Positions 1-64,000 of a DNA stretch of 64,000 bases are shown in pieces; position 1 is the stretch's first letter, and the number at the start of each line of letters is the position of its first letter. The position numbers were made by a program, and so were the translations under genes. The stretch lies in the NCBI GenBank assembly GCA_025330725.1, contig JAIWND010000006.1, forward strand, positions 1,116,001 to 1,180,000, read 5' to 3'. The DNA comes from Chlamydoabsidia padenii (Eukaryota; Mucoromycota; Mucoromycetes; Mucorales; Cunninghamellaceae). The notes under the pieces are model-generated. The model did not search any database, was not told the origin of the DNA, and was given only the letters and a program-made list of their open reading frames with translations.

Positions 1-535
1 CATTATATACAACAACCAAAGATATACCCAGCAGTATTCGTATTCCTATGTTTAAACAATTGATTAAATCCATCATTACTGGAACTGGATATCCGTTCTT
101 TAAGTTTACCTGATTCACCCTGAGATGAGGGACATTAGGCAGCCGATTATTTGATAAGGATTGATCGTTAGTGAAAGCGTTTTACTAAAAGAGAGAGAAA
201 GAATTAGTATTAAGTAATAGATTGTATTAATTGGGCTTACCAAAAGCATGCATTCGAAAAAAAAAAACCCCCCCCTTTATATTTGTTCAAGATGGTGAAA
301 GCGAAATGTGAGTAATTATATTGTTTCGACTTGTAGCTGTTGACAAAGGGGAGAGAGATCCATGGTTGATGTTGGATAAAAATAAAGTGAAAGAAGTGAA
401 GGGAAGAGGGGAGAAAGGGAAAAAAAAAAGAAATCAAGCACTCACCATATTCAAATCCCGCCTCAGCGATAATGGGTTGGCAAAATGTATGGTAAGTCCT
501 GACGCCATTTTTTCAAAAGCCATGATGTAAACGAG
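1..535. other. Left-edge spacer, possible 5' part of a minus-strand gene running off the window
   Basis: No protein could be recognised. On the minus strand a splice-donor-like GTAAGC is seen near 235-240 and a TTTTAG acceptor-like site near 184-189, followed by about 60 bases that are open in one frame. This would fit a gene that continues beyond position 1, but no family is recognisable and the exon chain is not closed. The exact GCGGGATTTGAA box at 450-461 would then lie in its promoter. From 535 to 717 I see nothing. Confidence 0.2.
450..461 (-). promoter_or_regulatory. GCGGGATTTGAA box (exact)
   Basis: Exact copy of the recurrent 12-mer, reading TTCAAATCCCGC on the plus strand. It lies upstream of a possible minus-strand gene at the left edge. 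The function is inferred only from recurrence in this window. Confidence 0.6.
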
Positions 536-717
536 CTTGAAACAGTATGTAATGACACCTGATTATCATATGAGTCTTTTTGTTAATGACTGACTTGGTT
601 TTTTCTTGAACAAATTATGACGAAAAAAGTCGGGATTTGTAAAACGTTTATGCATCGGGTACCCAATTTATATTTTATTGCTACGATAGAGTAAACATGA
701 GTACGAAGGGAAACAGT

Positions 718-1583
718 TTAAATGTCATCAGGCAAAAGAGGGGATTCTACATGGTAGTGAGAACAAAGAACTTTGACAGAGTCATAAATTTCCTCCAATT
801 CCTCTTTGGTAGCCCCATTGATTTTCGCTCCCAAAATATGTTGTCTCAAAAGAGGAGTCAATCGTAAGGAATAACAACCGGCCACCAAAATGAAACTCGT
901 TTCCTTGGCAGAAGTAAAAGTCAAATCTGATAGCAAGTAAGCGTACATAAAATTCTCTATCGACGAACCCAAATCGGGATAGATTTTATCATAGTGGTGT
1001 CTCATCTTGTCCGAACTGCTGCCATAAAGAAGGTCAAAGAACTTTCTTCCTCGTTCGCGCTGAGCAAGTATATCTTGCCAAGTGCCATCTTCACGGATAG
1101 GTTTTTTGGAAAGCATGTCTTTGACTACCTTAGGTATAGTGCTATCTATTGCATTTATGCCTATAATTACCTATTGATATCATGAGTGAGAGAGATTAGT
1201 TCTCATCAAGTGGCGGGATTTGAACCTTTTGCCTTACTTTGGGTGCACCGTAAGGGATCATTCCTTTAAACAAAGTATCTCGCTGCTTTGCTACCACATC
1301 AGCCTTGAGCATTAACTTTTTTTCTGGTGTTAAATCATCCATAGCTTCAATATCTTGATCAATATGTTTCCACAAGTGGGTAAAGTCTTCTGCATGATTC
1401 AAACCACTCATGACAAGCGGCTATTCAAAAAAAAAAAAGTGCATGAATTTACAGGGTCTGATCATTTCATAAATGGTAACTTACTGTGAGGTAGACCCAT
1501 TTATTCATCAAGTAATTCTTACTGGTCGCTTGATCAACCTTGTAGATAGAGCGGGTTTTCTTCAAAGCGTCAACTATAGACAT
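718..1583 (-). CDS. Carboxymuconolactone decarboxylase-like protein, copy 1
   Basis: Three exons on the minus strand: 1583-1485, 1420-1238 and 1170-718, joined in phase 0 to give 244 residues. The C-terminal exon carries the CMD/AhpD-like helical pattern: an SAKET helix, a single Cys in AGCYSL, then LLRQHILGAKINGATKEEL, which matches the family's H-x-x-G-A-x-x-x-G-A-T-x-E-E core. The redox CxxC pair of true AhpD is absent, so it is closer to the gamma-carboxymuconolactone decarboxylase type; substrate unknown. The intron 2 donor is GTAAGG. Its neighbour at 1935-2866 has introns at the same codons, so the pair is a tandem duplication. Intron 2 contains an exact GCGGGATTTGAA box. Confidence 0.75.
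1213..1224 (+). promoter_or_regulatory. GCGGGATTTGAA box (exact), intronic
   Basis: Exact copy inside intron 2 of the first CMD-like gene. It is one of few exact copies not in a 5' flank, so either the element also works from introns or copy 1 has an internal promoter. Confidence 0.55.
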
Positions 1584-1934
1584 GTTTTCACAGTGATGTT
1601 TGTAAAAAAGCAAAAAAAAAAAATAGAGAGCTCAATTTACCTCTTTTTATATTCCAAGAAATTTCAAGGTTATCCAAAATCGATCGATACCTACGATTAT
1701 GTGCATCCGCGCAATTTGAGCGCTTGGAGGAAATTAAAATCTTGGTGAAGTAATTCTGTAAAGCTATTACACCTTGACTGTACATATAAAAAAGTGAGCG
1801 TAGTAATGGGTAAAGTTTTAAAATCTAGCTGATTACTTGCATCCATGATTCATTTTATTATGATACGATTGGCGTTATAACAACGAGTACAAACTATACC
1901 TAAAAAGTAAACTAACCAATATAACACTATAACA

Positions 1935-2866
1935 CTACAAATTGCTCTTGATGGCTTTTGGTATAGAAGGGATAGGAGCGCCATAGTATCGGCAGAGAGA
2001 GATAACGGTCTGATATACCAATTGCAGATCTTGTGGAGAGGCGCCATTGTGGATCGCGCCATAAGAGTGCCCACGGAGTTGAGAAGGCAAGTCTTGAGCA
2101 TGGCATCCAGCGACGACGATCAGACTTGTTTCCTTTGCAGAGACCATAGTTGTATCAGATAACACCGAGCCGTAGAGATGATAGTGAGCAGTCTGAGCAA
2201 GATCAGGATAGGTAGTACCCATATTAGTCATCACCCGAGAAGTATGTTGGTCATAGATCTTGTCAAATAATGCTTGTCCCTTTTGTCGTTGTTCCTTCAC
2301 CTGTTCCCATGTCTCTTCTTGTCGGATCGGTTGTTTGGATAGTTGCTGACGAATGGTTTCAGGTGTTATGTCATATAACTGCCGAAGTCCATTGATCGTC
2401 TAAGAGAAAGAAAGGCATGATTAATTACCTAATGTGCTAAAAGAAGAAGAAAAAAAGGGGAAGGAGAGGAGTTAACTTACTTTGGGAAACCCGCCAGCAA
2501 TGAATCCTTTGAGAATGGCATCACGGAGTTTGGCTACCACTTTTACCTTGAGGTCGTTTTTTTCTTTTGGTGACAGATTATTCATGGCGTCCACGTCTTG
2601 ATCGATTAGTTTATATACTTGATGAATGTCTTCTGGATGGTTCAAGGTGCTAATGACAACCACCTATCAGAATTAAAAAAAAAAAAAAAAGAGAGAATGA
2701 GACAATTAATTAGTGTGCAAAAAAAAAAGTGTTCGTTTTTTTAGTATACAGTATTTGTAATACTTACCGTTATAATAAACCAGTTATTTGAGAGATAGTC
2801 ATCACCAGAGTCATTCGTTACTTTATAGATAGAACGGATGTCAAAAAGTGTGTCGGTCAACGACAT
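1935..2866 (-). CDS. Carboxymuconolactone decarboxylase-like protein, copy 2
   Basis: Three minus-strand exons: 2866-2768, 2663-2481 and 2399-1935, giving 248 residues. Exons 1 and 2 are exactly as long as those of the downstream paralogue (99 and 183 nt) and all junctions are phase 0. The CMD-like core is seen as SAKETSLIVVAGCHA followed by QLRGHSYGAIHNGASPQDL. The paralogues are clearly diverged, so this is not a recent assembly duplicate. A GC-rich variant of the recurrent box (2932-2944) lies 65 bp upstream of the start codon. Enzymatic role unknown; the family includes gamma-CMD and AhpD-like peroxidase partners. Confidence 0.75.
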
Positions 2867-2931
2867 TTTTGTGGGAGAAGGGGATGAAAAAAGATGACAG
2901 AGCGCCAACTAATCAAAATTGCGTTTAAACC

Positions 2932-2944
2932 CCGCCAGTACCTG
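2932..2944 (-). promoter_or_regulatory. GCGGGATTTGAA box variant
   Basis: On the minus strand the site reads GGCGGGGTTTAAA, 65 bp upstream of the start of CMD copy 2. It keeps the GCGGG core and has TTTAAA in place of TTTGAA. Confidence 0.4.
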
Positions 2945-2991
2945 ATTAGTTTTTTTGACAACACACATAAATATTTCATGATAAAAAAAAA

Positions 2992-3050
2992 AAAAGTTGC
3001 TCCGTAGAGCGTCCAACTCAGAAGTTTAGTGTCATCCTTGTGCAGGGGCC

Positions 3051-3082
<32 letters not shown>

Positions 3083-3107
3083 ATATGTGCCAGAGGACCC
3101 GAAGATC
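2992..3107 (-). ncRNA. U6: U6 spliceosomal snRNA
   Basis: The minus strand carries the hallmarks of U6. The 5' hairpin GATCTTCGGGTC has a UUCG loop. The invariant ACAGAGA box (3061-3067) pairs with 5' splice sites. It is followed by GATTAGCATGG with the AGC catalytic triad, then CCCCTGCACAAGGATGACAC, which forms the internal stem-loop. The gene ends in a run of T residues (poly-A on the plus strand, 2983-2995), as expected for an RNA polymerase III terminator. A TATA box about 31 bp upstream fits a type 3 pol III promoter. No intron interrupts the gene. An open reading frame across this region is a by-product, not a gene. Confidence 0.95.
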
Positions 3108-3137
3108 GTGGCAATTAGCAACTTCACTAATGCTGGC

Positions 3138-3145
3138 TATATATA
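3138..3145 (-). promoter_or_regulatory. TATA box of the U6 gene
   Basis: TATATATA on the minus strand, about 31 bp upstream of the inferred U6 5' end. This is the spacing expected for RNA polymerase III snRNA promoters. Confidence 0.75.
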
Positions 3146-3414
3146 CCCTACATTATTGAAAATAATTCAAGTTGTGGGATAAATTTCTCAAATAACATGG
3201 TTTCATTGGTCAGTGTATTGAATCCCCGATAACTGGTTTGTTGCTCTTTGTTTACTGTTATCATCATTAATAAGCTATATCCAACAAAAGAAAAGGATTC
3301 ATGCTGTCCTTGATGTAAGTATTAAAGCGCCGCGTTAAAACAACTTTTTGAAAAAAAAGAAGAAAAGAGACGAAGCGTTTTTTTCTTCTTTTACTTTTTC
3401 CAATCCTTTTTCAA

Positions 3415-4220
3415 ATGACATGCTTATCAAACTACTTTGATTTCTCCCAACCTTCGTTTTATCTAGCTTTGGCAAACATTTTATTCAATCCCATCTTTTG
3501 GAACATTGCGGCTCGTGCAGGTAAAAGGTGGGGAGGGAAAAAAAAATATCTATTGCACTCACTAACTCTTTTTGTAGAATACAAAAACCATACCTTGACA
3601 AAGTTAGCGGGCGGCGATGCTTTCAAAGGGTGTGCTATGCTAGCAGCATGTATCTTCTCACTTGGCATTCTTCGCGACTATCTTTATAAAACTTCTTTGA
3701 CAGTCCAACCGATTCATCCTCTTTTACAATCAGTGATTGTCAAAGTGGCAGCAAGTGTTTTGTTTTTGGCAGGAAACGTCTTGGTATTATCTTCTATGTG
3801 GGCTCTTGGTTTTACTGGAACGTACTTAGGTATATAAATATATATATATATATAAGAAGGCATGGATTAAACTGACTTTATATTTAGGTGATTACTTTGG
3901 TATTCTTATGGATGCTCGAGTGACGGGATTCCCATTTAATGTATGTGAAGATCCAATGTACACTGGTTCCACTCTATCCTTCTTGGCGACGGCATTATGG
4001 TAAGAATAGAGTGAATGGATGAGTACAAAACTGACAATCATTCTAGGTATGCTAGTCCTGCTGGTTTGCTACTGACATTAGTTGTCCATTTGGTTTATCG
4101 TGCTGCTTTACGATACGAAAGGTAAGCAAGAAAAGAAACATAGGCATATACTAACATTCTTGATCTAGTCCTTTTACTGCCATGATCTATGCCAATAGGA
4201 AGGACAAGAAACAGACTTAA
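3415..4220 (+). CDS. OPI3: Phosphatidyl-N-methylethanolamine N-methyltransferase (Opi3/PEMT family)
   Basis: Five exons: 3415-3520, 3578-3829, 3888-3999, 4047-4121 and 4169-4220, giving 198 residues, close to the usual length of about 200. The enzyme carries out the last SAM-dependent methylations from phosphatidyl-monomethylethanolamine to phosphatidylcholine in the ER membrane. Diagnostic stretches are the N-terminal [10 protein letters not shown], then [10 protein letters not shown] across the first junction, and [18 protein letters not shown] near residues 135-152, matching the conserved phospholipid methyltransferase motif. Several hydrophobic segments are present (for example [16 protein letters not shown]). 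The start is the first ATG after a pyrimidine-rich leader. All introns are short with GTAAG-like donors and TAG acceptors. Confidence 0.92.
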
Positions 4221-5454
4221 ATCTAGCTTTATGTTAACCCCCTTCCCCAATCCCCATGTATTTTCCCCATCTATTCACTAATAAAAATTTAAAAACTGTT
4301 TATCATATCGTCATCTTTGTCTTATAATGCATGGGTGCAATAGCAAATGTCACAAGTGATGTGTTGAATGACATCATGCTCATCGTATCATATAGTGTCA
4401 TCGGTAATCATTTTCTCTCTCTTCGAATAACTCACACCGATATATCGGGTATGGCATTTTAAACACTTTATGCAATCGGAGTTGAAATAATAGACAATCG
4501 CAAAAGAAACCATATCCACGTACAAGAAATTTTGAACAGAGGGTGCGATAAAACATCGATGTTACACGAATGACTAACATGTAAAATTTAGTGAAATCAT
4601 GACCCACATCACACGTCCTTCTCTCTCTCTTTTTTTTTCTTGTTTCTTTTTTGAAAAGAAGGGTATGGCGGGTTTGTCCAAATGAAGATGATCATAAACC
4701 ATTGTCTCCCTTTTTTTCAATAACAAGGTAGGAATATTGTAAACCGTTGTTTGCAACATGGCCGGGAAAACACAAATGTACATAATAAAAAACCAATTGG
4801 TGTATCTTAGTGACTTATCAATACTCTTTCATATCCCGAAATTCATGCAAACAACCTCAATACCTTTTTGTCATCCCAAATCGACTTTTGTCTATATAGA
4901 TGGATATAGTGATTATGGTTGGCTACAGGTCAATACCGCAATGGCGAAATTTATATAGATCCGATACTAGCGTACATATAAACAATATTGACACCGAGCG
5001 ATACATTGCAGTACAAGTCAATGCAGGCGGTAAAAATAGTCGTAATACTTATAGGCAGTAGAAACACATATAGTACATATATAAATTAATAAAAGGCACC
5101 CAGATAAAATAAAGGCATTTATATATACAACAATACAGTATAGATGAAATCAAGACATGCAGGTGGAGTGAAGACATGTAGATGTATCAAGGTTATTGTA
5201 CATATTTATTAAAAAACCGCCCCTTTCAACTCCATATATGGGAATGAGAAGTCCAGCAAGAAACCGTATAATGTAATTAGATAATTAGCTATACAGTACG
5301 TCAAAAGTTCTTAGTCCTATCAAGTTATAAGATAGTAAGGGGTAGTGAATAAGATAAGTGGTTTTATTTAATAAGACTATATAGATATTTATACTAGATG
5401 TTCTATGGGTGGATAAGGGATAATAACCAACACAATATGACAATATAATAAACA
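4221..5454. other. Spacer downstream of OPI3
   Basis: No supportable gene. Short open frames are AT-rich and lack family motifs or splice logic. AATAAA-like sites near 4280 may serve the OPI3 3' end. Otherwise I see nothing in it. Confidence 0.5.
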
Positions 5455-5880
5455 CTACTGTAATAATATAAAAGAAGCCAGTTCACCAATTGTCATTTTT
5501 TCTTGATTGATTAACTTGAGTTCGTCAACAGCCGCCATAACAGGATTTGAGTCTTCATTATATTGATGTAAGGGTTTGCTTATCAGTGCCCCCCCCCCGC
5601 CCTTCTTGATAATACGCTGTAGCCGAGTATGACAACTAAAAGCTTGATCTTCCAAAACAGCTTTTAGTGTCTTCCATAAATTCCACAGGAGTGTAGCCAA
5701 ATAATTCCATCAAAGGTTCGTATCTTGCCATCCATTGTCGTGCTTCCGTTGCATAAGTTGTAAATCTAGTCCGTCGTCGTCGTTCCAAGTTGGTGTTGAA
5801 GAAGATCATGTCATTCACATCGTTCCTTGCCACATTACATAAAACAAGTATGCAACAACCAACAAGAAGAAAAACCTACA
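5455..5880 (-). pseudogene. Exon-like minus-strand segment downstream of the 600-bp cassette
   Basis: An acceptor-like TTGTAG near 5880 is followed on the minus strand by an open stretch to about 5640. It encodes a short hydrophobic segment, then NTNLERRRRTRF and EARQWMARYEPLMELFGY, which looks coding. The frame closes at 5636, while a second open frame overlapping at 5700 continues to 5455, so a frameshift or an unrecognised intron would be needed. No family is recognised. It may be the last exon of the gene from which the upstream repeated exon and intron units came. The break and the degenerate upstream copies favour a decayed gene, but a functional spliced form is not excluded. Confidence 0.3.
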
Positions 5881-8230
5881 ACCTTAATAAATGTGATTAA
5901 TAACCTTGTCTTTTCATGTTTTTTCTTCTCCTTTACTGACTTCGCACCAGAAGCAAAGACAGACCACGAAACACCCGAGAAAACAACCAAGGAAGAAAAC
6001 CCAACCATAACGAATGAAGACAAGCCTACAATAAAAGCAAGAAGGGTGATTAGTAACATTGTCTTTTCTTGTTTTTTTTTTCTTTACTTACAATAACATT
6101 CCCATAAACATTGTACATCATGATCCATCTCCAAGAATCAAATGGAGCGCCGTAACTGGTGGCTAGTGCAACAGGCCCGAGAATAGGTAGATCCACATTA
6201 ATGCTTCAACATACCAGACATCCCGCTTTACCAGCACAACCCATTCGCTAGCAGATCCAGGTGTGGAACAAGACACGATGTCGCCTACGTCCTGCCACGG
6301 CAAAAAGGCTAGGCCTAATCACTATTCTACACAAAGGTAGCCGCCTCGCAAAATCTGCCAACTTATCCATTTGATTACTAACAGGAGACTTCACATATCA
6401 GGGACAGAGAGAGACCATACACCACAAGTGACAACAAACATGAAAGTCAAGTAACAATACATGGAGACAACCCTACAATAAGAGCAAGAAGGGTGATTAG
6501 TAACATTGTCTCTTGATGGTTTTTTTTTTCTTCTTTACTTACTCTGTACCAGAAACAAAGAGAGATCATGATATACCAGAGACAATAATCAAGGAACAAA
6601 GCCCAACCATAATGAAAGAAGACAAGCCTGCAATAAAAGTAAGAAGTGTGATTAGTAACATTGACTTTTCATGATTTTTTTCTTTACTTACAATAGAGTT
6701 CCCTTAAACATTACACATCATGATCCATCCCCAAGAATCAAATGGAGCGCCGTAACTGGTGGCTAGTGCAACATGCCCGAGAATAGGTAGATCCACATTA
6801 ATGCTTCAACATATCAGACATCCCGTTTTACCAGCACAACCCATTCGCTAGCAGATCCAGGTTTGGAACAGGACACGATGTCGCCTACGTCCTGCCACGG
6901 CAAAAAGGCTAGGCCTAATCACTATTCTACACAAAGGTAGCCGCCTCGCAAAATCTGCCAACTTATCCATTCGATTACTAACAGGAGACTTCACATATCA
7001 GAGACAAAGAGGGAGATCATACACCACAAGTGACAACAAACATGGAAGCCAAGTAACAATACAGGAAGACAAACCTACAATAAGAGCAAGAAAGGTGATT
7101 AGTAACATTGTCTTTTCATGTTTTTTGTTTCTTCTTTACTTACTTTGTATCAGAAGCAAAGAGAGATCATACACTACCAGAGACAACAATCAAGGAAGAA
7201 AGCCCAACCATAATACATGAAGAAAAACCTACAATAAGAACAATAAGTGTGATTAGTAACATTGTCTTTTCTTGTTGTTGTTTTTTCCATTACTTACAAT
7301 ACAGTTCCCATAAACATTGTACATCATGATCCATCCCCAAGAATCAAATGGAGCGCCGTAACTGGTGGCTAATGCAACAGTCCCGAGAATAGGTAGATCC
7401 ACATTAATGCTTTAACATACCAGACATCCCGCTTTACCAGCACAACCCATTCGCCAGCAGATCCAGGTGTGGAACAAGACACGATGTCGCCTACGTCCTG
7501 CCACGGCAAAAAGGCTAGGCCTAATCACTATTCTACACAAAGGTAGCCGCCTCGCAAAATCTGCCAACTTATCCATTTGATTACTAACAGGAGACTTCAC
7601 ATATCAGGGACAGAGAGAGACCATACACCACAAGTGACAACAAACATGAAAGTCAAGTAACAATACATGGAGACAACCCTACAATAAGAGCAAGAAGGGT
7701 GATTAGTAACATTGTCTCTTGATGGTTTTTTTTTTCTTCTTTACTTACTCTGTACCAGAAACAAAGAGAGATCATGATATACCAGAGACAATAATCAAGG
7801 AACAAAGCCCAACCATAATGAAAGAAGACAAGCCTGCAATAAAAGTAAGAAGTGTGATTAGTAACATTGACTTTTCATGATTTTTTTCTTTACTTACAAT
7901 AGAGTTCCCTTAAACATTACACATCATGATCCATCCCCATGAATCAAATGGAGCGCCGTAACTGGTGGCTAGTGCAACATGCCCGAGAATAGGTAGATCC
8001 ACATTAATGCTTCAACATACCAAACATCCCGCTTTACCAGCACAACCCATTCGCTAGCAGATCCAGGTTTGGAACAGGACACGATGTCGCCTACGTCCTG
8101 CCACAGCAAAAAGGCTAGGCCTAATCACTATTCTACACAAAGGTAGCCGCCTCGCAAAATCTGCCAACTTATCCATTTGATTACTAACAGGAGACTCCAC
8201 ATATCAGAGACAAAGAGGGAGCATAAACCT
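5836..8230. repeat. Tandem array of about 600-bp cassettes (1,206-bp higher-order unit)
   Basis: A landmark (TGATCCATC followed by CAAGAATCAAATGGAGCG) recurs at 6121, 6721, 7327 and 7927, giving periods of 600, 606 and 600 bp. Cassettes 1 and 3, and 2 and 4, resemble each other most. About 300 bp starting near 6400 recurs almost unchanged near 7606, so the recent event duplicated a 1,206-bp dimer. Each cassette carries, on the minus strand, intron-like blocks with GTAAGTAAAG donors and TTATTGTAG acceptors on both sides of an exon-sized block. The exon-sized blocks are open in one copy (a hydrophobic, Trp/Tyr/Cys-rich peptide) and closed in all frames in another. No known family was recognised. 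Confidence 0.85.
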
Positions 8231-9600: not shown

Positions 9601-9730
9601 AAGATGAAGATAAGGCAAACCTAGTTTGACAAAGTCAGACTATAGGAAGGAAACACTTTTATTGGGCGGTTTCACTTCGCAGGCCGCGAGATCAATCTTG
9701 TTGATCCATGGCTTAACGAAAGCAACCCAA

Positions 9731-10260: not shown

Positions 10261-11166
10261 TCACGATGCATGATAGATGAAAGGTTGTTCATCACTTCAC
10301 TACAGCTTTCAGTATTCATATACTTTGTCACCGAGGACCGGGTGTCAGTCGAAAAGGGAAAGATAGAGAAAAGAGACTTACAATTAAAAAAGTTGCTATC
10401 ATGCAAATATTCATTTCTACTTGAAAGATTCGTGGATCTATCAAATTTCCTTGTTCCTTATTCAGATGTACTGACTGTTCCTCTTCGTACTTTCCTTTCT
10501 TACAAACGGCAGGTCATCGCAAGTCTGGACTGATCATCATAAGAATCTTGTAGCTTGGATTTTGCGGTACCGTATATTGGAAATATGCTATAGTGCTCAC
10601 ATCGTCACTTTAATCAGTAGCATCCGTTGACAATTGGAGCGATTAGAGCCCTTTCCAAATCTTAGTAGAGGCAGGCGGGACCTGAAAATGAAATCTGGTT
10701 CCTCTTCGCACTTTTTTTAATATACATTCTTTTTTTTTTTTTACAAAAGTCAGGTTAAAACGATCGCAAAGCTATATAATTCCATACAGAAGGCTTGGTA
10801 CAATGGCCATTATATAAACTTTGTTGGAAATAGGCTAAGGAATGCTCATGGTCACTTTAATCATTAGCATCGCTTGTCCATTAAGCTAGTAGAGCTCTCT
10901 TAAGATTCAAGGCGAGGGTAAGCGGGTTTTAAAATAAGTTTTGGTCTTGTGTGTCAATTTTTCATTCTGCAACTTTTTATTATTATTACAAAAGTCAGGG
11001 TAAAACGATCTTGAGGCTATACTGCTCCATACAGCGGACTTGGTACAATGACCATTATGTAAACTTTGTTGGAAATAGCCTAAGGAATGCACTTGGTCAC
11101 TTTTGTCATTAGCATCACTTGTTCATTAAGGCAGTAGAGCACTCCCAAGGTTCAAGGCGAGAGTAA

Positions 11167-11178
11167 GCGGGATTTGAA
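11167..11178 (+). promoter_or_regulatory. GCGGGATTTGAA box (exact) within tandem unit
   Basis: Exact 12-mer. Sister units carry diverged versions at the same place (GGCGGGACCTGAAA near 10674, GCGGGTTTTAAA at 10922-10933), which gives a natural series of variants. Confidence 0.5.
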
Positions 11179-11214
11179 CCAATTTTTGTCCTGTGTGTCA
11201 ATTTTTCATTCTGT

Positions 11215-11217
<3 letters not shown>

Positions 11218-11270
<53 letters not shown>
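11218..11270 (+). repeat. 53-nt poly-T tract
   Basis: Uninterrupted run of T between a TTCTGTAAC segment and ACAAAAGTC, in the third tandem unit. Length is prone to sequencing error. Confidence 0.9.
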
Positions 11271-11275
<5 letters not shown>

Positions 11276-11800
11276 AGTCAGGGTAAAACGATCTTGAGAC
11301 TATACTACTCCATACAAGGTACTTGGTGCATTGGCCATTATTTAAAGTTTGTTGAAAATAGGCCAAGGAATGCTCATGGTCACTTTTGGCGTGATCATCA
11401 CTTGCCCAGTGAGGCAGTAGAGCTTTCTTAAGATTCAAGGCAAAAGGGTAAGCGTGGTGTGAAATAAGTGTACTTTTGTCTGTCAATTTTCAAAACACAA
11501 ATCTTATTTTGTGAACGAACCTTTCTTCCACCAAGAAAAGGATAAATTGAACTCCCGACTGGCATTGAATTTACAGACTTACTCTGAGATTTGTGATACG
11601 AAGCACCTTTTAAAATCTGGTCATGTGACATCCCAAAAAGGAGTTTTATTTCCCTGTTGAAGTTGGTGGTAGCATGATATCAAAGATTGACAACCACAGG
11701 AACATGTAGTAGGTTACCTTTTGCCAATATATAGCAAACTAGGTAGTCCTTTACTCAGTTTTTGTTTTGTTTTTTGAAAAAGGTAATGGAGGTGAGAATA

Positions 11801-15773: not shown

Positions 15774-15785
15774 TTCAAATCCCGC
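15774..15785 (-). promoter_or_regulatory. GCGGGATTTGAA box (exact) upstream of the Chs4-like gene
   Basis: Sense orientation relative to the gene, 89 bp from the start codon, just beyond a purine-rich tract. Confidence 0.65.
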
Positions 15786-17669: not shown

Positions 17670-17681
17670 TTCAAATCCCGC
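17670..17681 (-). promoter_or_regulatory. GCGGGATTTGAA box (exact) upstream of the UNC93-like gene
   Basis: Plus-strand TTCAAATCCCGC, 156 bp before the start codon. Antisense orientation relative to the gene. Confidence 0.6.
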
Positions 17682-20353: not shown

Positions 20354-20365
20354 TTCAAATCCCGC
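20354..20365 (-). promoter_or_regulatory. GCGGGATTTGAA box (exact)
   Basis: Plus-strand TTCAAATCCCGC about 640 bp upstream of the ALDH start. No gene start lies closer. Confidence 0.5.
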
Positions 20366-20870: not shown

Positions 20871-20882
20871 TTCAAATCCCGC
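20871..20882 (-). promoter_or_regulatory. GCGGGATTTGAA box (exact) upstream of ALDH
   Basis: Plus-strand TTCAAATCCCGC, 126 bp before the ALDH start codon. Confidence 0.65.
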
Positions 20883-28308: not shown

Positions 28309-29337
28309 TAAATACCTAGTCATACATTCCTCTTTAACTATAACTACTGTGGATTTACATTTGATATCAATCCTCACCTTGTCTCCTATTGTAAATCATT
28401 TTAAATAAAAAATACTTTTTTAATCATCATTGTCTCCTGATCGGCACTTGAAACTTGATTTTTTTTTATGCTTTGTGTATTATGATTCCAAATGATGATT
28501 GGTTTGTATTAAGCAATAGGCGAAAAAAAAAGACTCGTCGCCGGGGTTTAAAACAACAAACTGGTTGCATGAATCACACGTTTCTCAATGAGTATCGTTT
28601 CCAGTTCAATTGCGGTAAGGTTTGTCAAGAACGACGATTAATCATTCCATTTATACTCAAGGGGAATTTGCATGCATGGATACCATGAAAACTCTATCGA
28701 TCTGTGCGTCAGGTAAGAAGGGGGGGAAAGCTTGTTGTTATTTGTTGTTTACTCTATGTATACCCAGGTGGGAACCTCTATTCTTGTCTCTTTTACCGAT
28801 GGCGTTTTTCATGTATGCACATTAAATGGCTTATACTTTTTCTCCTTTTCTTTACCATAGACTTTTTCTGACAACATGAAAATGGCGCACCAAGGCATTT
28901 GTCGGTGTTTCAAATACACCCTTTGTTGCATCAAGACGAAAGAGGTGAATTACATACAACGGATTTGCTTGAAAGAATGGATGGTGTAAAGATAAATCAC
29001 ATTCGTGGGTATCATGTGCTCTTTTTCGTGTCGCCTTGGAATGAAAGCTATTACTATGTGGTACCTGTCTTTTATATGGATATGGTAGTACCCAGCTCTA
29101 TTCATATGACACTATATACAATAACTAATATCTATGAACATTTGTATCATTGATGTTTATTTATAATGATGAGGTACTTTCAACAAGGGGGCAAAACGGG
29201 GAATTGTCGGGATTTGAAACTTGCATTGTGTGTCATGTGAGCGCGCCTTGAAAGAGTTTACCCCGTCCACCCCCCCTTTTTTTTTTTTGTTTCTCTTTCT
29301 CTTTCTCTTCTTTTTTTTTTTTCATATACCCATTACT
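28309..29337. other. Spacer with doubtful short frames
   Basis: A frame near 28926-29153 encodes HQDERGELHTTDLLERMDG and looks slightly coding, but has no clear start or partner exon. A box variant CCGGGGTTTAAA is at 28541-28552, and a near-exact box (29207) sits before the MBOAT gene. Otherwise I see nothing. Confidence 0.3.
29207..29218 (+). promoter_or_regulatory. GCGGGATTTGAA box variant upstream of the MBOAT gene
   Basis: TCGGGATTTGAA (11 of 12), 119 bp before the start codon, sense orientation. Confidence 0.55.
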
Positions 29338-44080: not shown

Positions 44081-45353
44081 GGTGGTTGTCTTTTATAGAG
44101 GTAGAGGAGATGTATATAGTAATAGTATAGTTTATAGGTTTCAAACAAAAATGAGTTTGATAAAGATATATAAAGTGGAGAAGGAAGGAAAAAAGAAAAA
44201 AAAAAAAAAAGGAAGAAGAAACAAAAAAGAAAAAAGTCTTATGACCTGAATAAATTCAAAAAAGGGAGGGCGCACAAATCGGTATCGGCGTTTCAAATTT
44301 CATCATCTATTTTAAGAGATACAGGCACAATCGCAGAGAGGTTTATGATGCAAAGCACATCACTGTTCAAACTCTTTCTTTTTTTGTAAAACTGTTTCAA
44401 CCTTTTAATAAACTAGAAACATCATGCAGGCAGTATGATTTTCAAATGAAGCCTGATCTTGAGTACTGTAGCTAGATCCTGTGTTAATAACTACTCTAGG
44501 TACCTTTCCTCAAGGTACATAAAGAACATGTACATTTGATATGTCGAGTGAATGGCAGTTTCACGTACATGAAAGACAATTAGAAATATGCCTTTGCTTG
44601 ATGGGTAACGACCGGAGATTCTTTTGCTTTTTTCATATTCAGACCCCGACATTATGCCGAAAGGAGCAAATTTAATTTTTCGTCGATTAGAGTAAAGCTT
44701 TAGCCCGAGTGGCTTCCTATAGGCGTCATTTAATTTATGCGAACTGTGATGGCCAATGTCCTGGATAAGATTGTTATAATTTGACAATGCATGGGTTTTG
44801 ATCATCTGATTTTTTCTTTTTCACGCCATATAAAAAAGCTTTTCAAATACTTTAACAAACAACAACAACTTGTCAGTCAATTCTTAGATGAGGGAAGGGT
44901 ACGAGGCTTCGGCCAACGGTAAGTGAAAAAGAAATGGAAACCACATACTTCCCACATAATATTAACTGATATTTCATCCTCCGCTTATGCGACGAAAAAT
45001 TCAATGTCACCATTTTCTTATTCTCTTCGAAAAAAGATCATGATGAGTGCTATTGTTGTCTATTGTACAAATAGCTGAAACACTTCTCTCCTGGAGTTCA
45101 AGCAATGTAATGCTTCCATAATCCCCTTACAATTCAGGTACTCTGGTATTATTATGTACACTAATCAACCTTTGTTTTAATACACTGAATGATTATACTG
45201 TATAAATCTATTCTTATCAATGAATTACCAATGTTTGCTTGGTACCCGCAAACGAAAGACTTTGGATCGGGATTTAAAAAATTTGTATAAGACTTTGTTT
45301 TTCCATCTGCGACCTTCATTTTCCTCCTTCTTCTTCCTTCTCCCGATCAAAAC
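44081..45353. other. Divergent spacer between bHLH and Dnmt2 genes
   Basis: A frame of 104 codons at 44491-44805 (minus) has basic, coding-like text around YRKPLGLKLYSNRRKIKF but no recognisable family; it may be a transposon remnant. Near 44906-44917 and 45092 nothing further is seen. The box TCGGGATTTAAA at 45267 sits before Dnmt2. Confidence 0.35.
45267..45278 (+). promoter_or_regulatory. GCGGGATTTGAA box variant upstream of Dnmt2
   Basis: TCGGGATTTAAA, two mismatches, 75 bp before the start codon. Confidence 0.45.
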
Positions 45354-51935: not shown

Positions 51936-51974
<39 letters not shown>

Positions 51975-53312: not shown

Positions 53313-53324
53313 GCGGGATTTGAA
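53313..53324 (+). promoter_or_regulatory. GCGGGATTTGAA box (exact) upstream of the PP2C gene
   Basis: Antisense to the gene, 148 bp from the PP2C start codon. Confidence 0.6.
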
Positions 53325-53577: not shown

Positions 53578-53589
53578 TTAAAATCCCGC
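53578..53589 (-). promoter_or_regulatory. GCGGGATTTGAA box variant upstream of the TrhO-like gene
   Basis: Plus-strand TTAAAATCCCGC, one mismatch, 75 bp before the start codon. Confidence 0.5.
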
Positions 53590-55130: not shown

Positions 55131-55564
55131 ATATAGATAGACTTCATTTAGAGCATTATCCATTTTAGAAATAAAACTCCCTTTGTATATTATTTTTGCT
55201 TTTAATAAACTTTTTATTGTATGTTATATAAATGTCTGTCAATATGGGGGGTGCATTGACATTGTCGATTTAAAAAACGGTGTTTGAAAACTTCAGGTAC
55301 CGTTGTCATGCACCTGTCTTTTTCAAATCCCGCGTATCACTTTGGTAATAGAGAACCCTGGTTCCCCATATCTATACAAAGCAACATATTATTAATAAAC
55401 CCATTTTTAGTATTCTACTACATATAATCATTGTTGTTGATCAATCAAAGTACTTGTTTTATTATTAGAGATAAAAAGAAAAGTCCCAAGTCTATTTTAT
55501 TAATACAAAACATGTGTGACAAAAAAAAAAAAAAAAAAAAAAGGATAAACATTAAACTAAAGGA
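55131..55564. other. Convergent 3' spacer with an exact box
   Basis: AATAAA-type signals near 55204 and 55393. An exact GCGGGATTTGAA box (55322) lies here although both neighbours end here, so it is not a promoter of either. No gene is seen. Confidence 0.5.
55322..55333 (-). promoter_or_regulatory. GCGGGATTTGAA box (exact), between convergent genes
   Basis: Plus-strand TTCAAATCCCGC. It is the clearest exception to promoter location. Confidence 0.45.
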
Positions 55565-55925: not shown

Positions 55926-55966
<41 letters not shown>

Positions 55967-56705: not shown

Positions 56706-56718
56706 TGTATGATACAGA

Positions 56719-56749
<31 letters not shown>

Positions 56750-56806
56750 TAAAGTAAAAAGACAAGTGTTTTCTTTTATTGTTGCAGATTGTAGTTAAAA
56801 CCCAAT

Positions 56807-56818
56807 TTCAAATCCCGC
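56807..56818 (-). promoter_or_regulatory. GCGGGATTTGAA box (exact) upstream of NECAP
   Basis: Sense orientation, 101 bp upstream of the NECAP start codon, in the 140-bp gap to the AMMECR1 gene's 3' end. Confidence 0.65.
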
Positions 56819-56845
56819 CCACCCCGCCCACGCAGCAATGATCCA

Positions 56846-57566
<721 letters not shown>

Positions 57567-57622
57567 TTGGGAAGATAAAGGGGAGAGCGAATGGCAAGGA
57601 AAGCCATAAAAATACGAGCTAG

Positions 57623-57634
57623 GCCGGTGTTTAA
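57623..57634 (+). promoter_or_regulatory. GCGGGATTTGAA box variant upstream of AMMECR1
   Basis: GCCGGTGTTTAA, a diverged version, 56 bp from the start codon. Confidence 0.3.
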
Positions 57635-57841
57635 ATCTGTGGCTGAGAATAAAAAAGTGAGCACTCGGAAAAGACTACATGTGCATTATCACTAGCTTGT
57701 GCCTTATTCTACACGCATTTCTATCATGCAGATAAACACAAAGCAACAAAAAAAGCTTTACAGGCTATCAAGTGAAACATATAAACGAATTTTTTTATAC
57801 ATTAGTTTAATAACAATCTGACCTGCATGACAGTTACCATT

Positions 57842-57853
57842 TTCAAATCCCGC
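57842..57853 (-). promoter_or_regulatory. GCGGGATTTGAA box (exact)
   Basis: Plus-strand TTCAAATCCCGC, 275 bp upstream of the AMMECR1 start. Confidence 0.5.
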
Positions 57854-59457
57854 TTCCTATCATATTTATGTCAACGTATAATCGACTACCCAAGTCTTTT
57901 TCCGTTTATCACAGAGTCCTATGTATAAAATGTTACAAATGTTTTTTTATTACATACAGTTAACAGGAAAAACAAGAATTATTTCTATACTAATGTATGT
58001 CTATATTATGATGAGATGGAGGGAGACTAAACTACTTGTGTGAAGAGAGGAAGAGAGATAAATAAAGCCAGAGACCATCATTACTTTGTTATCGTCCAAT
58101 GTTGTTCTTGGAAAGAGTTACCTGTTTGAATCATATTATTGATCATCACCCAATCCAACATATGAGAGGGGGGGGAAGTAGCATTACTGATCCAGCCACA
58201 GCCATCCAAGCTACTATTCAATTGCCATTCGCCAATCATCATAATTTTATTGGTGATATATTGATTTGGATGAGAAGATCATCCATTTACAGATCCTTCG
58301 AGGCCGAGATTTTGTGTTGATATGGTTGATGGTTGATGTATGTCCAATATGTCCGTACACCCGGCCAGTAAAGTCTATTTGCCAAAGGTATGTAGTAGCT
58401 GTACGCCAGGAATATAATAGCCGATGAAGAGTTGATGGTTGCTGATCGCTGATGTATGTAACAGTTTGCCCGTGAGCTGTTGCTTTGTTGTTCATTGTTA
58501 CACACAAGTATCACCATATACGTTCATTCAGATAAATAGATGATCAGTCGTCCGAGTTGTTGCTTACGTTTGCTGGTATTTGGGTCACTTATTCACCTAG
58601 ACAGAGAGAAAAGAGATGTACCAATATCAGAACCTTGATGAAGTTGTTGACCCATTTTACAGCACCTCCTTTTTGTTCCCCTGTTGTTTGATTGCTTTAC
58701 CTTTTTCCCTAGTTTGTCCATCACCAGCACATAGCCTATACACAAGAAATTAATATGTATCAATTTTACCTGCGAAGAAAGAGAGAAAGAAAGTATCAGT
58801 ATCAAGGTCTTGGTGAGGATGTTAATCCAAAAGCAGAATGACCCAGTCAACATTACCACCCAGTTCTTTTCTTTTGTTTGTTTTACCTTCCCCTTCCCCA
58901 ATTTGTATCAGCCATAAGAGAGAAGTTTCACCGTCGCCTTTTGTTTATCTTCACCTATTCGTTACAATCAGTGTGAATTTCATATTGTGAAGAAGACCAA
59001 TTTAGACCATGGTTGAAATGTTCATCGTCATCAGTATTCGCACGGTGAATTGCTGGCGCCCATTAGGTTTACCATGCAGCGTCAATGATACAGTATAGTC
59101 AAGCCGCCATGTTAAAGGTGAGTATATAAGAGGAACAAATCAAGTTGGAAAAAGAGGAGGGGGAAACAAAAAAAAAAAGAAGGAAGAGAAAAAGAAAGAA
59201 AAGAGAAGGTTTTGATTTTTAGCCGCTTGATTTTATTTTTTAAATCCCGCCCAATGGCCTTGATCTTGTTTCGCAAATCGCTCGTTTGCTCTAAACTTTC
59301 AGGCAACCATCCTAATAGTATTTGAAGCACACCTTTCAAGTTGAGTCATATCATCTGGATAACTCAACCTGGACACCTTCTTTTTGTTCCTGAGCCTGAT
59401 TTGATCTCTATTGGCTGGAAAGAACGAGAAGGATTATGCCCCCATATGCGGGATTTG

Positions 59458-59469
59458 AAAAGATCATCA
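59458..59469 (+). promoter_or_regulatory. GCGGGATTTGAA box (exact)
   Basis: Exact copy 117 bp beyond the eL24 stop codon. No annotated gene starts next to it. Confidence 0.45.
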
Positions 59470-59585
59470 GAGGGGAAAATGTATCTTGCATCCTGTCATA
59501 TGACAATAGTACAAGCTATGGTAAAAAAAAAAAAAAAAAGCTTTATTGCATGAAACCGGGGTTTAAAATATCAAGGGCATAAACC

Positions 59586-60212
59586 TTAGGCTTTTTTGGC
59601 AGCTTGAGCGGCCTTCTTGGATTCCTTGGACTTGGCAATAGCAGCTTGACGAGCAGCAGCACGGGCATCAGGCTTTTGGTTACGCTTGGCACGGATAGCA
59701 TCCCAAGAGGCACCAGCAATAGCACGTTCATGCTTGACAGTACGACGAGAGCGCTTCTTGGCTACTTCTTCGGTAACACCCTTCTTGTTCAAACGACGGT
59801 AGATGGTGGTCCATCGGATCTTGCGGGGATTCAAACGTTGAAGGAAGTAAGATTCGGCCTTGCCGTTGATAAAGCGGAAAGTCTATAACAAAAAGAGAAG
59901 AAAAAAAAAGGTGAGCCGAACGTTCGTATTTCCTGTCGGTTTCGTTCTGTTATCGTCGCTTTATTGTTGTATACGTACTCTAGTGAAGATATGATGGGAA
60001 AAAAAATAAGTCGGTCATGTTTCATATTTTGGTCATGATCAAGTTCATTTACCTGCTATCGATACGGACATAGGTCTTACCCCGAGCAGGGTAGATTTTG
60101 AATCCAGAAAAGGCACAAATCTCAAGCCTATTTGAGAACAAAAGTTATCAGTAAACAATAATTTGGATGGATGGGTGGATGGATGGATGGATGATGGTAT
60201 TTCATACTTCAT
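59586..60212 (-). CDS. RPL24: Ribosomal protein eL24
   Basis: Four minus-strand exons: 60212-60208 (5 nt, ATGAA), 60127-60053, 59979 (1 nt) and 59882-59586, giving 125 residues. It is a component of the 60S subunit. The N-terminus reads [20 protein letters not shown], the eL24 zinc-ribbon-like fold, then [36 protein letters not shown], and [20 protein letters not shown]. An arginine at the second junction needs one extra base (AG+A), supplied by an A at 59979 flanked by CACTAG and GTACGT. The C-terminus is about 30 residues shorter than in yeast (155), ending [21 protein letters not shown] microsatellite sits in intron 1. Confidence 0.93.
59979..59979 (-). other. Predicted 1-nt exon (A) of the eL24 gene
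   Basis: On the minus strand the sequence is TTCACTAG-A-GTACGTAT. Without it the two flanking coding exons are out of frame; with it the junction codon is AGA (Arg), the residue expected in DS(K/R)TF of eL24. Confidence 0.65.
60165..60196 (+). repeat. GGAT tetranucleotide microsatellite in eL24 intron 1
   Basis: About seven imperfect GGAT units within the intron after the 5-nt first exon. Confidence 0.8.
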
Positions 60213-60283
60213 GTTTGATTTTTGTAGGGGATGCTAAAGCTGGTTTGAAAACCATTACTGTTCAAAAAAGGGGCTATCAGAAG

Positions 60284-60295
60284 CGGCATTTAAAA
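60284..60295 (+). promoter_or_regulatory. GCGGGATTTGAA box variant upstream of eL24
   Basis: GCGGCATTTAAA, 71 bp from the eL24 start. Confidence 0.4.
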
Positions 60296-61401
60296 ATGTG
60301 TGGGGTCGGAATTCAAAAAAAGGAACAATCCATTTCGCATGAATCTTCTTCCCGACTGAAACAGTGCCCCCAACCTTTAAAGTAATGACATTTATACATC
60401 GTCTATCAAAGTAAGTCATTACTCAAACTCATCAAAGGTATCAAGCATTACCCTTTAGTTTACCTAACACCTATGTAAGGATTCGGGTCAGGGGAGGTTC
60501 AAATCCCGATGTTAATTGGAGATGGTCAATCAGAAACATCAATCGGAACACCTCTGTACTGATATAACAGAGGTATAAGAGGGTATGCTCATCTTCAAAT
60601 GATAAACAATCGGAAAAATTGAGCTCACATATCATTTCAAACACACGATTAAATCCCGCAAGTCGTCGCCTTTGCATGATTTAAAACCTGAAATAGGGGG
60701 AGCGGTGTTTTTTTCTTTTCTTTTCTTTTCTTTCCACTTTGCTTTACATTATCCCTTCCCATCAACTTGTATTCTCGACAATCACAGAAAAATTGCCTTT
60801 TACTTTTTATTTGGTGGTGTTGATGTCTTTTACCTCTTGATTATCTTGTTGTCTCTTATCTTGGTAAGTCAAACTGGTAATGTCTTTATACTCATACTCC
60901 TTTTTTGTTTACTTTTTTTTTAGTGACGATGGAAGCACTATCTTTATTGCTTGACTCTTTCAATGGAAGCAGCGCACGATATGAAGAAAGTGGTCGTGTT
61001 GTGTCCATCTTTACTCTTGGCTGATCTCTCTTTTTTTTTGTGGTGGCGATGGTAATGGTGTTCACACTCGGCGGGACATTACAAATATGTTACGAATGGA
61101 ATGAACTTAAAAATGACATTGCTTTGGTAAAAGACAAATGAACACGGAATCTACAGCTTCAGGTCCAAGGCAAACACAGTCGATAATCAAAGGTAACGAA
61201 GAGCAATGGACAACACCTTGATATCAACCGTGGTTTTTTTTTAGTTATATAGCTATAGTAGGAATATCACTTTTATATCTTTGTAAACATATGACTACTT
61301 TTAATTTATACATATATATAATAATAAAAAATCTTTTTTAACACTATTGGATTGGCGTGGGGGAGGCGGTATCGTTTGCATTATGCGTATGAACCTGCCA
61401 G

Positions 61402-61413
61402 ACGGGATTTGAA
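61402..61413 (+). promoter_or_regulatory. GCGGGATTTGAA box variant upstream of TM9SF
   Basis: ACGGGATTTGAA (11 of 12), 164 bp before the start codon. Confidence 0.55.
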
Positions 61414-61577
61414 ATCGGGAAAATGAAAATCATTTCCAATGCCTTCTTCCGCCCTGGACTAAAAAGGATATGGTAACGCCTGGAGCGTCACGATATTATC
61501 GGAATTTGAATTCTGGTCTCATTACATTTAGGTCGATTTTATTATTCCTCTTCTTCTTCCTTCATCCTAACACAACC

Positions 61578-63869
61578 ATGAAAAGTAGCTCTCTGCTTTT
61601 ACTATGCGCATCTTCTTTGGTGCAAGTGGTATTTGGATTTTATTTACCAGGTGTCGCTCCAGAAGAATACTCCAATGGTGATGATGTACCTCTTTTTGTT
61701 AACGCCCTCACTCCAATGTCCAACTCTCAAATCAAGTCGGTTATATCCTACGATTACTACTTTGAACGCCTCCACTTTTGTCAACCAGAAAAAGGTCTTC
61801 AAAAACAAACGGAAAGCCTAGGCAGCATCTTGTTTGGTGATCGTATCTTTACTTCTCCCTTCAAGGTAAAAAAAAAAAGAATTAAACGGATGGGCTTATA
61901 CCTTAACCATCTATTTTTATCTTCTTCAATAGTTAAATATGGGTCGAGCCACGAAATGTAACACGCTGTGTGTGACTGACAAGATTCCTTCTGAAGATGC
62001 TGAATTCATCAACCAACTTATTACTGACGACTATGGCATTAATGGTATTGTGGATGGTCTTCCTATTGGCTATGAAGTGAAGGATGAACACACTGGTGAA
62101 ACATTCAGTCGTATTGGGTTCGACCTGGGCTTCTTGGCTGATAATCAAAAACCTGCTCTCAACAATCACTTGATCATCGACATTCGTTACCATGAACGAC
62201 CTGGTGGCAAAAACCGTGTGGTGGGCGTCTTGGTCTATCCTACTAGCAAGGACCATAAACTCACCAAGGATGGAAAGGCAGCGGTTTGTGATGATGCTAA
62301 CGATGTCACTTATCAACTCAAGGCGGATGGTAATGACAAGGTGGCATATACCTACGACGTTATTTGGACTGTAAGTAAACTAGCTAATGGATAAAATAGT
62401 ATGACACGGAAAGAAAGAAAAAGTAACATTGACTCTCTCTCTCTTTTTATTACTTCACTAGCCTTCTAATATCTCTTGGGCTACTCGATGGGATAGTTAT
62501 CTTCATATTTTGGATCCTTCCATTCATTGGTTCTCTCTTGTTAACTCTATTGTCATTGTCCTCTTCTTGACTGGCATGGTGGCCATGATCCTTTTACGGG
62601 CTTTGCATAAAGATATTTCTCGTTACAATGCTGTTGAAGCTCAGGTAAAAACAAAAAAAAAAAAATAGATCTATGGGATGATAAGGTGGAAAGGGGAGGA
62701 AGGCCTTATACTAACTTTTATAACTTTATATGAATAGGAAGATGTACAAGAAGACTATGGATGGAAGTTAGTGCATGGTGATGTCTTCCGACCTCCTACT
62801 CGCCCCATGTTGTTATCAGTACTTGTCGGTAGTGGATCTCAATTGATTGCCATGACCGGATTAACTTTGGGTAATGATAATGAACAATGTTACTATATGA
62901 AGGATTCATATGAACTAACTAACATTACACCATTTTATATAGTGTTTGCCATTCTTGGATTTTTGTCTCCTTCTAATCGTGGATCCCTTGGTACAATGAT
63001 GGTGATCTTCTTTATGGTGTTCAGCTGTATCTCTGGTTTTACATCTGCTCGTATTTACAAGATGAATGGTGGCGAAGCATGGAAGACGAACATCTTGTTA
63101 TCTGCGACTCTCTTCCCTGGGTAAGTTGAAAGTATATATATATATATATATAAATGGATAGAATAGGGATTCTGACATATCAGTGTATCTTTTTGTTTTG
63201 AACAGTGTTATTATGGGTGGATTGACTGGATTGAATTTCTTTTTGATCGGATCTGATTCTTCTGGTGCTGTGCCATTTGGAACCATGTTGGCGGTATTGG
63301 GCCTTTGGGTATTAATCGCTTTACCACTCAGTGTTGGTGGCTCTTACATTGGATTCCGTAAACCACGCATTGAACATCCTGTCCGAACCAACCAAATCCC
63401 TCGACAAATCCCAGATCAACCTGTCTACCTCAAAAGTGCCCCTTCGATCCTCATGGGTGGTATTCTTCCTTTCTGTGCCATCTTTATTGAACTTTACTTT
63501 GTCATGAACAGCATCTGGTTCCATCGTATCTATTATGGCATTGGCTTTTTATTCTTGGTCTTTATTGTCAACCTATTGACATGTGCTCAAGTCACGGTGC
63601 TGATGTGCTACTTCCACTTATGTAACGAAGATTACCACTGGTCTTGGCGTGCATTTTTGACATCCGGTGCCTGTGGTCTATATGTCTATTTCTACTCAAT
63701 CTTGTATTATCTCACCAAACTGGAAATCAACACACTCACAAGTACTATTCTTTACCTGGGCTATTCTGCTATCATCAGTTTGTTACTAGGTCTTCTCACT
63801 GGGGCCACTGGTTACATGGCCTGTCTTTACTTTTTAAGAAAGATCTTTAGCAGCATCAAGGTAGATTAG
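61578..63869 (+). CDS. TM9SF/EMP70 nonaspanin (transmembrane 9 superfamily)
   Basis: Six exons: 61578-61865, 61933-62370, 62462-62644, 62738-62870, 62943-63120 and 63206-63869, giving 627 residues, the usual length. It is an endosome/Golgi membrane protein sorting cargo and metal homeostasis. The start has a cleavable-looking signal peptide (MKSSSLLLLCASSLVQVVFG), then the lumenal FYLPGVAPEEYSNGDDVPLF and YDYYFERLHFC, which is the diagnostic block. After a long lumenal domain, nine hydrophobic segments follow, with EEDYGWKLVHGDVFRPP-like sequence (EDYGWKLVHGDVFRPP) and the C-terminal ILYYLTKLEI and SIKVD ending. The intron at 62871-62942 is 72 nt, open and in frame. Confidence 0.93.
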
Positions 63870-64000
63870 TTTGTTGTTGCTATGTTATTTTTAGTTGATA
63901 GATGACTCTTTTGTATCCCCCCTTTTTTTATTTTATTTATTCTCAATAAAGTAACACTATTTTATACTACTTCTATGTATGCGGGTCTTCGGCGAAAGAT
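63870..64000. other. 3' flank of the TM9SF gene
   Basis: AATAAA at 63945 fits a polyadenylation signal. No other feature is seen before the window ends. Confidence 0.6.

Follow-up and report, generated by a model that had tools for sequence, protein, structure and literature searches.

In yeasts, general regulatory factor sites contribute to the formation of nucleosome-free regions, and which factor dominates varies from lineage to lineage, according to the sections of PMC2897762 drawn on here. For cell-cycle promoters, the cited portion of PMC5716687 gives the E2F site as TTSSCGC, the cell cycle genes homology region (CHR) as TTTGAA, TTCGAA or TTTAAA, and the cell cycle-dependent element (CDE) as lying four bases before the CHR. 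Here we describe a promoter-associated box in the fungus Chlamydoabsidia padenii (Mucoromycota; Mucorales), first noticed as a recurrent 12-mer in a stretch of 64,000 nucleotides (assembly GCA_025330725.1, contig JAIWND010000006.1, positions 1,116,001 to 1,180,000; hereafter the window), and compare it with these systems. The 12-mer, GCGGGATTTGAA, is the most frequent version of a single asymmetric site, [G/T]CGG-NN-TTTNAA[A/T], which may be bound by a protein with a general role at promoters.

The two strands of the window together contain 12 exact copies of GCGGGATTTGAA, where a mean of 0.01 was expected and none of 100 shuffles reached 12, and matches with up to two mismatches number 45 against an expected mean of 5.85; the preliminary description of this DNA was sound in placing the exact copies far above chance and in noting many near variants. 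The same holds genome-wide, as the 34.2-Mb, 95-contig assembly contains 1,880 exact copies divided nearly evenly between the strands (945 and 935) and not one copy of the reversed pattern. The window is itself enriched 3.4-fold over the genome mean (12 copies, where the genome-wide density predicts 3.5; P = 3e-4), which is probably the reason that the box caught attention here. A 617-residue protein encoded in the window was compared with 8,000 scored candidates, and among the best 120 listed its closest named relatives are from Chlamydoabsidia padenii (69% identity over 87%), Absidia repens (81% over 69%), Hesseltinella (73% over 73%), Gongronella (69% over 80%), Halteromyces (83% over 59%) and Cunninghamella (78% over 62%); judged by this one protein, the host looks like a member of the Mucorales of the Absidia-Cunninghamella group (Cunninghamellaceae).

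To define the box we used a working set of 264 kb, comprising the window and positions 1-200000 of contig C1; this set is the scope of the counts that follow unless genome-wide figures are given. The distance between CGG and TTT is rigid, with 148 occurrences at a gap of two bases and 2-13 at every other gap from 0 to 12. The two middle bases of CGG-NN-TTTNAA are drawn from a limited choice (GA 72, CG 17, GG 16, GT 14, AA 9, TG 9, TA 4 and TT 3), the remaining eight dinucleotides occurring once or not at all. The form CGGGWTTTNAA has 86 copies, approximately 100-fold above the third-order Markov expectation of 3 per Mb, and once simple repeats are set aside 9-mers internal to the box head the over-represented noncoding words. 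Thirteen of the 86 copies belong to two repeat families (see below) and were removed for base composition and most position tallies. Among the other 73, the preceding base is G in 40, T in 25, A in 4 and C in 4; the N is G in 45, A in 15, C in 10 and T in 3; and the following base is A in 51, T in 16, C in 5 and G in 1. The CG form (TCGGCGTTTNAA) has T before CGG in 13 of 17 copies and the GA form has G in 43 of 72, a difference that might be due to a second binding protein of a related kind. Boxes are not clustered, gaps of less than 100 bp being no commoner than random. Genome-wide, CGGGWTTTNAA is present in 7,620 copies (reversed control 94), CGGCGTTTNAA in 1,321 (reversed control 16) and CGGKGTTTNAA in 2,301 (reversed control 76), so that the counted forms sum to 11,242 against 186 for the reversed controls. 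Another member of the Mucorales, Lichtheimia corymbifera, has a 33.6-Mb genome with 12,379 genes (PMC4133162, in the part cited); set against that number, approximately 11,000 boxes would be on the order of one per gene.

Neither half of the box is enriched in its own right: outside boxes TTTGAA occurs 319 times (351 expected) and GCGGGA 38 times (36 expected). The rigid gap and the lack of enrichment of the halves lead us to consider the box one site and not two. This bears directly on the earlier suggestion that an E2F-like core is fused to a CHR-like element, in which case the box would be a composite of E2F/DP and LIN54-type sites (CDE/CHR, DREAM) serving cell-cycle genes. The letters do resemble GCGGGA followed by TTTGAA, the genome encodes E2F/DP-type domains (six matches over the cut-off), and worms have an E2F/LIN-54 hybrid motif (PMC3093354, in the portion cited). 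However, the E2F-type swap of CGGG to CGCG, CGCGATTTNAA, is found only 60 times genome-wide (reversed 17) compared with the 7,620 copies of CGGGWTTTNAA, and the box does not tolerate G or C at both S positions as an E2F site does. A CDE-type core occurs 16 times at a spacing of two bases and never at the four-base CDE-CHR spacing, middle dinucleotides other than GA are common, and the fourth position of the CHR, a purine, is replaced by C or T in 13 of the 73 sites (TTTCAA and TTTTAA forms), nor does the CHR-like half behave as an element acting alone. Moreover, no cell-cycle theme was found among the 20 boxed C1 genes scanned with Pfam. A search for a LIN54-type protein was uninformative, as the human sequence found no match and the Pfam TCR model matched no control genome. 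The canonical E2F word GCGGGAAA leans the other way, with 8 copies against 3.3 expected, and ordinary E2F sites may therefore exist beside the box. The variants and spacing of the box, its unconstrained N and the lack of enrichment of either half all count against the composite, which we rejected and now regard as very improbable.

To place the box relative to genes, we trained a small hidden Markov model (HMM) on this DNA. By its predictions, 80 of the 86 CGGGWTTTNAA copies are in no predicted gene (5.95 per 10 kb), five are in exons of genes of at least 100 residues (0.45 per 10 kb), one is in a smaller predicted gene, and none is in the 13.2 kb of introns of genes of at least 100 residues. 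Because some genes are split or missed by the HMM, we also scored coding segments, at thresholds of 8, 12 and 20 and with the 13 repeat copies removed. At threshold 8, there were seven boxes in 128.6 kb of coding DNA (0.54 per 10 kb), one in 21.4 kb of intron-like DNA (0.47), 27 in 38.9 kb of divergent gaps (6.9), 32 in 55.9 kb of same-strand gaps (5.7) and five in 18.0 kb of convergent gaps (2.8), an approximately tenfold depletion from coding and intron-like DNA. Of the boxes no more than 200 bp away from coding DNA, 29 were on 5′ sides and four on 3′ sides at threshold 8 (P = 1e-5), 18 and two at threshold 12, and 10 and two at threshold 20; the corresponding HMM-based tally, which includes the repeat copies, was 14 to five. 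Box density is highest 50-200 bp before coding DNA and peaks at 50-100 bp.

A matrix built from copies with at most one mismatch gave the same bias when scored on flanks, many of the 5′ ones being the ends of exon-sized segments and not proven gene starts. A strong site was present within 250 bp in 47 of 166 5′ flanks and 16 of 164 3′ flanks, where column-shuffled matrices gave 0.55 and 0.35, respectively, and within 500 bp in 72 and 32. As a held-out set we took 14 of 30 exact-copy loci (L017-L030), which are outside the training stretch, although on the same contig and with two overlapping. Thirteen of these neighbor at least one 5′ side, with 19 5′ sides and seven 3′ sides overall; six are in divergent gaps, none is in coding DNA, and within 250 bp six have a 5′ side and two a 3′ side. 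These results support the description of the box as abundant in a Mucoromycota genome, associated with promoters and mostly outside repeats, and leave us nearly certain that it is real and promoter-biased.

The boxes near genes in the window are listed below, with strand and location.

450..461, minus strand, exact 12-mer in the gap past the 3′ end of CMD copy 2
1213..1224, plus strand, exact 12-mer within a 76-bp intron (read by eye) of CMD copy 2, a gene on the minus strand
11167..11178, plus strand, exact 12-mer in a ~245-bp tandem repeat, 700 bp upstream of OTU
15774..15785, minus strand, exact 12-mer 90 bp upstream of the Chs4-like (Sel1 repeat) gene
17670..17681, minus strand, exact 12-mer 158 bp upstream of UNC93
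20354..20365, minus strand, exact 12-mer 645 bp upstream of ALDH
20871..20882, minus strand, exact 12-mer 128 bp upstream of ALDH
29207..29218, plus strand, variant TCGGGATTTGAA 120 bp upstream of MBOAT
44286..44296, plus strand, CG-form box CGGCGTTTCAA 206 bp upstream of the bHLH-like gene
45267..45278, plus strand, variant TCGGGATTTAAA 76 bp upstream of Dnmt2
53313..53324, plus strand, exact 12-mer in the divergent PP2C/TrhO promoter region, 150 bp upstream of PP2C
53578..53589, minus strand, variant GCGGGATTTTAA 77 bp upstream of TrhO
55322..55333, minus strand, exact 12-mer in the convergent TrhO-NECAP gap, one of two boxes at 55278-55333
56807..56818, minus strand, exact 12-mer 102 bp upstream of NECAP
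57625..57635, plus strand, TG-form box CGGTGTTTAAA 59 bp upstream of AMMECR1
57842..57853, minus strand, exact 12-mer 276 bp upstream of AMMECR1
59448..59459, plus strand, exact 12-mer past the 3′ end of eL24
60498..60509, minus strand, variant TCGGGATTTGAA 286 bp upstream of eL24
61402..61413, plus strand, variant ACGGGATTTGAA 165 bp upstream of TM9SF
61500..61510, plus strand, AA-form box CGGAATTTGAA 68 bp upstream of TM9SF

We placed 18 gene starts in the window, with gene names taken from the preliminary description or from reading translations. Of ten frames scanned, Pfam supports six (Sel1 repeats in the Chs4-like gene, kinase, arrestin, PSP1, MBOAT, and EMP70 in TM9SF) and gave no family for the other four. 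Eleven starts (UNC93, NECAP, Chs4, ALDH, MBOAT, Dnmt2, PP2C, TrhO, AMMECR1, TM9SF and bHLH) have a box within 250 bp upstream, the nearest being 59-206 bp from the start codon. The nearest box upstream of ATP synthase alpha is at 359 bp, and there is no box in the first 400 bp upstream of OTU, Rho1, septin, the kinase or CMD copy 2. The preliminary description had placed boxes 55-165 bp upstream of about 14 named genes, and 10 of these do have a CGG-NN-TTTNAA member 59-165 bp before the start codon, the exceptions being eL24, with its box at 286 bp, and OTU, Rho1 and CMD copy 2. Similarly, five of the 12 exact copies (15774, 17670, 20871, 53313 and 56807) are within 165 bp upstream of a start. 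The others are farther upstream (57842, 20354 and 11167), in an intron (1213) or past 3′ ends (450, 55322 and 59448). Eleven of the 12 positions originally given were correct, the last copy being at 59448 and not 59458.

The 5′ bias and the peak at 50-100 bp before coding DNA would suit the general core-promoter element that had also been proposed, at which the basal machinery would assemble a set distance away from the transcription start. However, the box does not keep to one orientation, as 17 copies run with the gene and 23 against it, in agreement with the initial impression that both orientations are used; distances to start codons are spread from 59 to 206 bp; and copies occur in convergent gaps and past 3′ ends. 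The near-equal orientations and the boxes in convergent gaps make a directional core-promoter element doubtful, and we consider this explanation quite improbable.

With regard to the genes served, 21 of the 85 predicted C1 genes of at least 120 residues carry a box within 400 bp. Twenty boxed C1 genes were scanned with Pfam; 15 had a match at an E-value of 0.001 and 12 were over the curated cut-off, in the families short-chain dehydrogenase, RMI1, PHP, Tom22, TrkH, syntaxin-18, DUF3712, DUF5427, PSMD8/eIF3K type, Ctr, epimerase and mitochondrial carrier. No common theme was apparent among these 20, and among 10 of the 64 unboxed C1 genes scanned as a control, seven with a Pfam family, the functions were equally mixed. 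This bears on the alternative that the box is an ordinary activator or repressor site, at which one transcription factor with no general chromatin role would control a very large regulon (e.g., growth, stress or nutrient). That only part of the genes are boxed near the start (21 of 85 on C1 within 400 bp and 11 of 18 in the window within 250 bp) is consistent with a regulon, but the lack of a shared theme, the presence of boxes in convergent gaps and a total of approximately 11,000 copies, which is very many for one regulon, lead us to consider it unlikely.

The explanation that we favor, and to which we would assign an even chance, is that the box is bound by a protein with a role like that of a general regulatory factor of yeasts. 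It is suggested by a long, rigid, asymmetric and unclustered site that occurs in both orientations, is densest 50-200 bp before coding, serves unrelated genes, avoids coding and intron-like DNA, and is found at some convergent gene ends. As with such factors, promoters are boxed in large number, far above chance, and the genes served are functionally mixed as judged by Pfam. In this Mucorales lineage, the box would be recognized as one rigid unit by an abundant protein with sequence specificity, which would work as a Reb1- or Abf1-type factor located at promoters in either orientation; once bound, it would repel nucleosomes and so give access to the transcription machinery, and at some gene ends the box may halt read-through or mark a boundary. 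It is from the DNA sequence that we infer the binding of a protein, that it is a single protein, and the opening of chromatin.

Several observations weigh against a general regulatory factor. Beyond 200 bp from coding DNA, 5′ and 3′ sides show similar numbers of boxes. The contrast between divergent and convergent gaps, which is clear at threshold 12 (7.1 vs. 3.0 per 10 kb), is gone at the strictest threshold of 20 (5.1 vs. 4.7) and absent with the HMM gene calls (5.8 vs. 5.3). At least half of the scored 5′ flanks have no strong box within 500 bp, poly(dA:dT) tracts are about as frequent near boxes (67% of 116) as at random noncoding places (62%), and the classes of middle dinucleotide could mean that several proteins are involved. 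A bolder version of the general regulatory factor proposal, which we hold only tentatively and think somewhat improbable, is that the box could be the site of the dominant such factor of the Mucorales, or of this family of them. This would be a lineage-specific counterpart of Reb1/Abf1, responsible for the nucleosome-free regions of a large fraction of genes. At convergent gene ends it would also serve as a boundary or a block to read-through, and the middle dinucleotide would either adjust its affinity or select among related factors.

The box could instead be a relic or passenger of dispersed repeats and not a functional site. The flanks had been described as unrelated, which is true of most copies, the exceptions being the 13 of 86 copies of CGGGWTTTNAA within two families with repeats of ~240-250 bp; two further copies partly resemble one of these families. 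The rest do not follow this pattern, as BLAST of 400-bp flanks found that most other copies share only matches of up to 62 bp between separate sites, the held-out flanks share only matches of 18-29 bp, and the 13 repeat copies were excluded when the 5′ bias was determined. Since the two families cover only those 13, we rejected a repeat origin, which we judge the remotest of the explanations considered. The first family is a dispersed tandem one with ~240-bp units that are ~83-88% alike, each usually carrying a single box that may be decayed; its arrays are as follows.

window 10729-11441, array of ~240-bp units
C1 27016-27470, array of the same family
C1 46034-46567, array of the same family
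C1 62773-63691, array of the same family
C1 156679-157191, array of the same family

A second tandem family likewise bears boxes (C1 9647, 9897, 83841 and 178128).

Extra TFIIIC sites, B boxes outside RNA polymerase III genes, can lie near RNA polymerase II genes. The box might be such a site, as its reverse complement, TTCAAATCCCGC, resembles the tRNA T arm. However, 28 of the 73 sites carry, in box orientation, A, C or T at the position equivalent to the invariant C56, the form with G at the purine position 57, TTCGAATCCC, occurs twice compared with 47 copies of TTCAAATCCC, and the preceding GG is not conserved. We rejected the TFIIIC site because the box keeps neither C56 nor a free choice of A or G at 57, and find it highly improbable. 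A role as a methylation context was also rejected, as the Mucorales paper on N6-methyladenine (6mA) gives, in the part cited, the motifs VATB and AAA6mACA and not the box (PMC11258239).

Some further features of this DNA were noted. A U6 small nuclear RNA gene is present at window positions 2991-3112 on the minus strand (78.2 bits); its 122 bases span 105 model positions, and hence it may contain an insertion or a small intron. A GG-form box is located nearby, at 2924-2934. ARAGORN in its bacterial setting found no tRNA gene in the 264 kb, a setting in which intron-bearing tRNA genes may be missed. The noncoding word ATTCATGCA is over-represented (18 copies vs. 1.6 expected in the 264 kb, e.g., at window positions 4841, 19765 and 34415) and is possibly a second regulatory element, while GTGATTAGTAAC and words overlapping it recur at least seven times in the window. 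Lastly, three near-identical predicted peptides (VDLPILG.VALATSYGAPFDS) are encoded at 6134-7402 on the minus strand, ~600 bp apart, and are likely a tandem duplication.

We found no description of the box, or of any genome-wide Mucorales promoter box, among the open-licence PMC papers listed in searches on its letters and on promoter motifs of Mucorales or early-diverging fungi, and the cited parts of PMC12695648 and PMC10985990 name no box-like motif. A rigid 11-bp element with approximately 11,000 copies is readily counted in any assembly, so that existing genomes would suffice to trace where among early-diverging fungi it arose or was replaced. Its protein could be isolated with one oligonucleotide, and the box would show whether general regulatory factors turn over rapidly in deep fungal branches, as they do in yeasts.

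Among the known systems, the TFIIIC B box is like the box in the resemblance of the latter's reverse complement to the tRNA T arm, but the box has a fixed adjacent CCCG that is not needed in a B box, and its C56 and R57 positions behave otherwise. The CDE/CHR and E2F sites of the DREAM system (PMC5716687 and PMC3093354, in the sections cited) share with it an E2F-like core adjoining the letters TTTGAA or TTTAAA, but the box is without the four-base spacer, the degeneracy at the two S positions, enriched halves or a detected cell-cycle theme. A further likeness is to the Abf1, Reb1 and Cbf1 sites of yeasts and the CACGAC element of Candida (PMC2897762, in the portion cited), which are, like the box, abundant, promoter-associated, sequence-specific and found at mixed classes of genes. 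The box, described here from its sequence, differs from these in its letters, its longer rigid bipartite core and its choice of middle dinucleotides. The kind of element is a known one, and CGG-NN-TTTNAA appears to be a new member of it.

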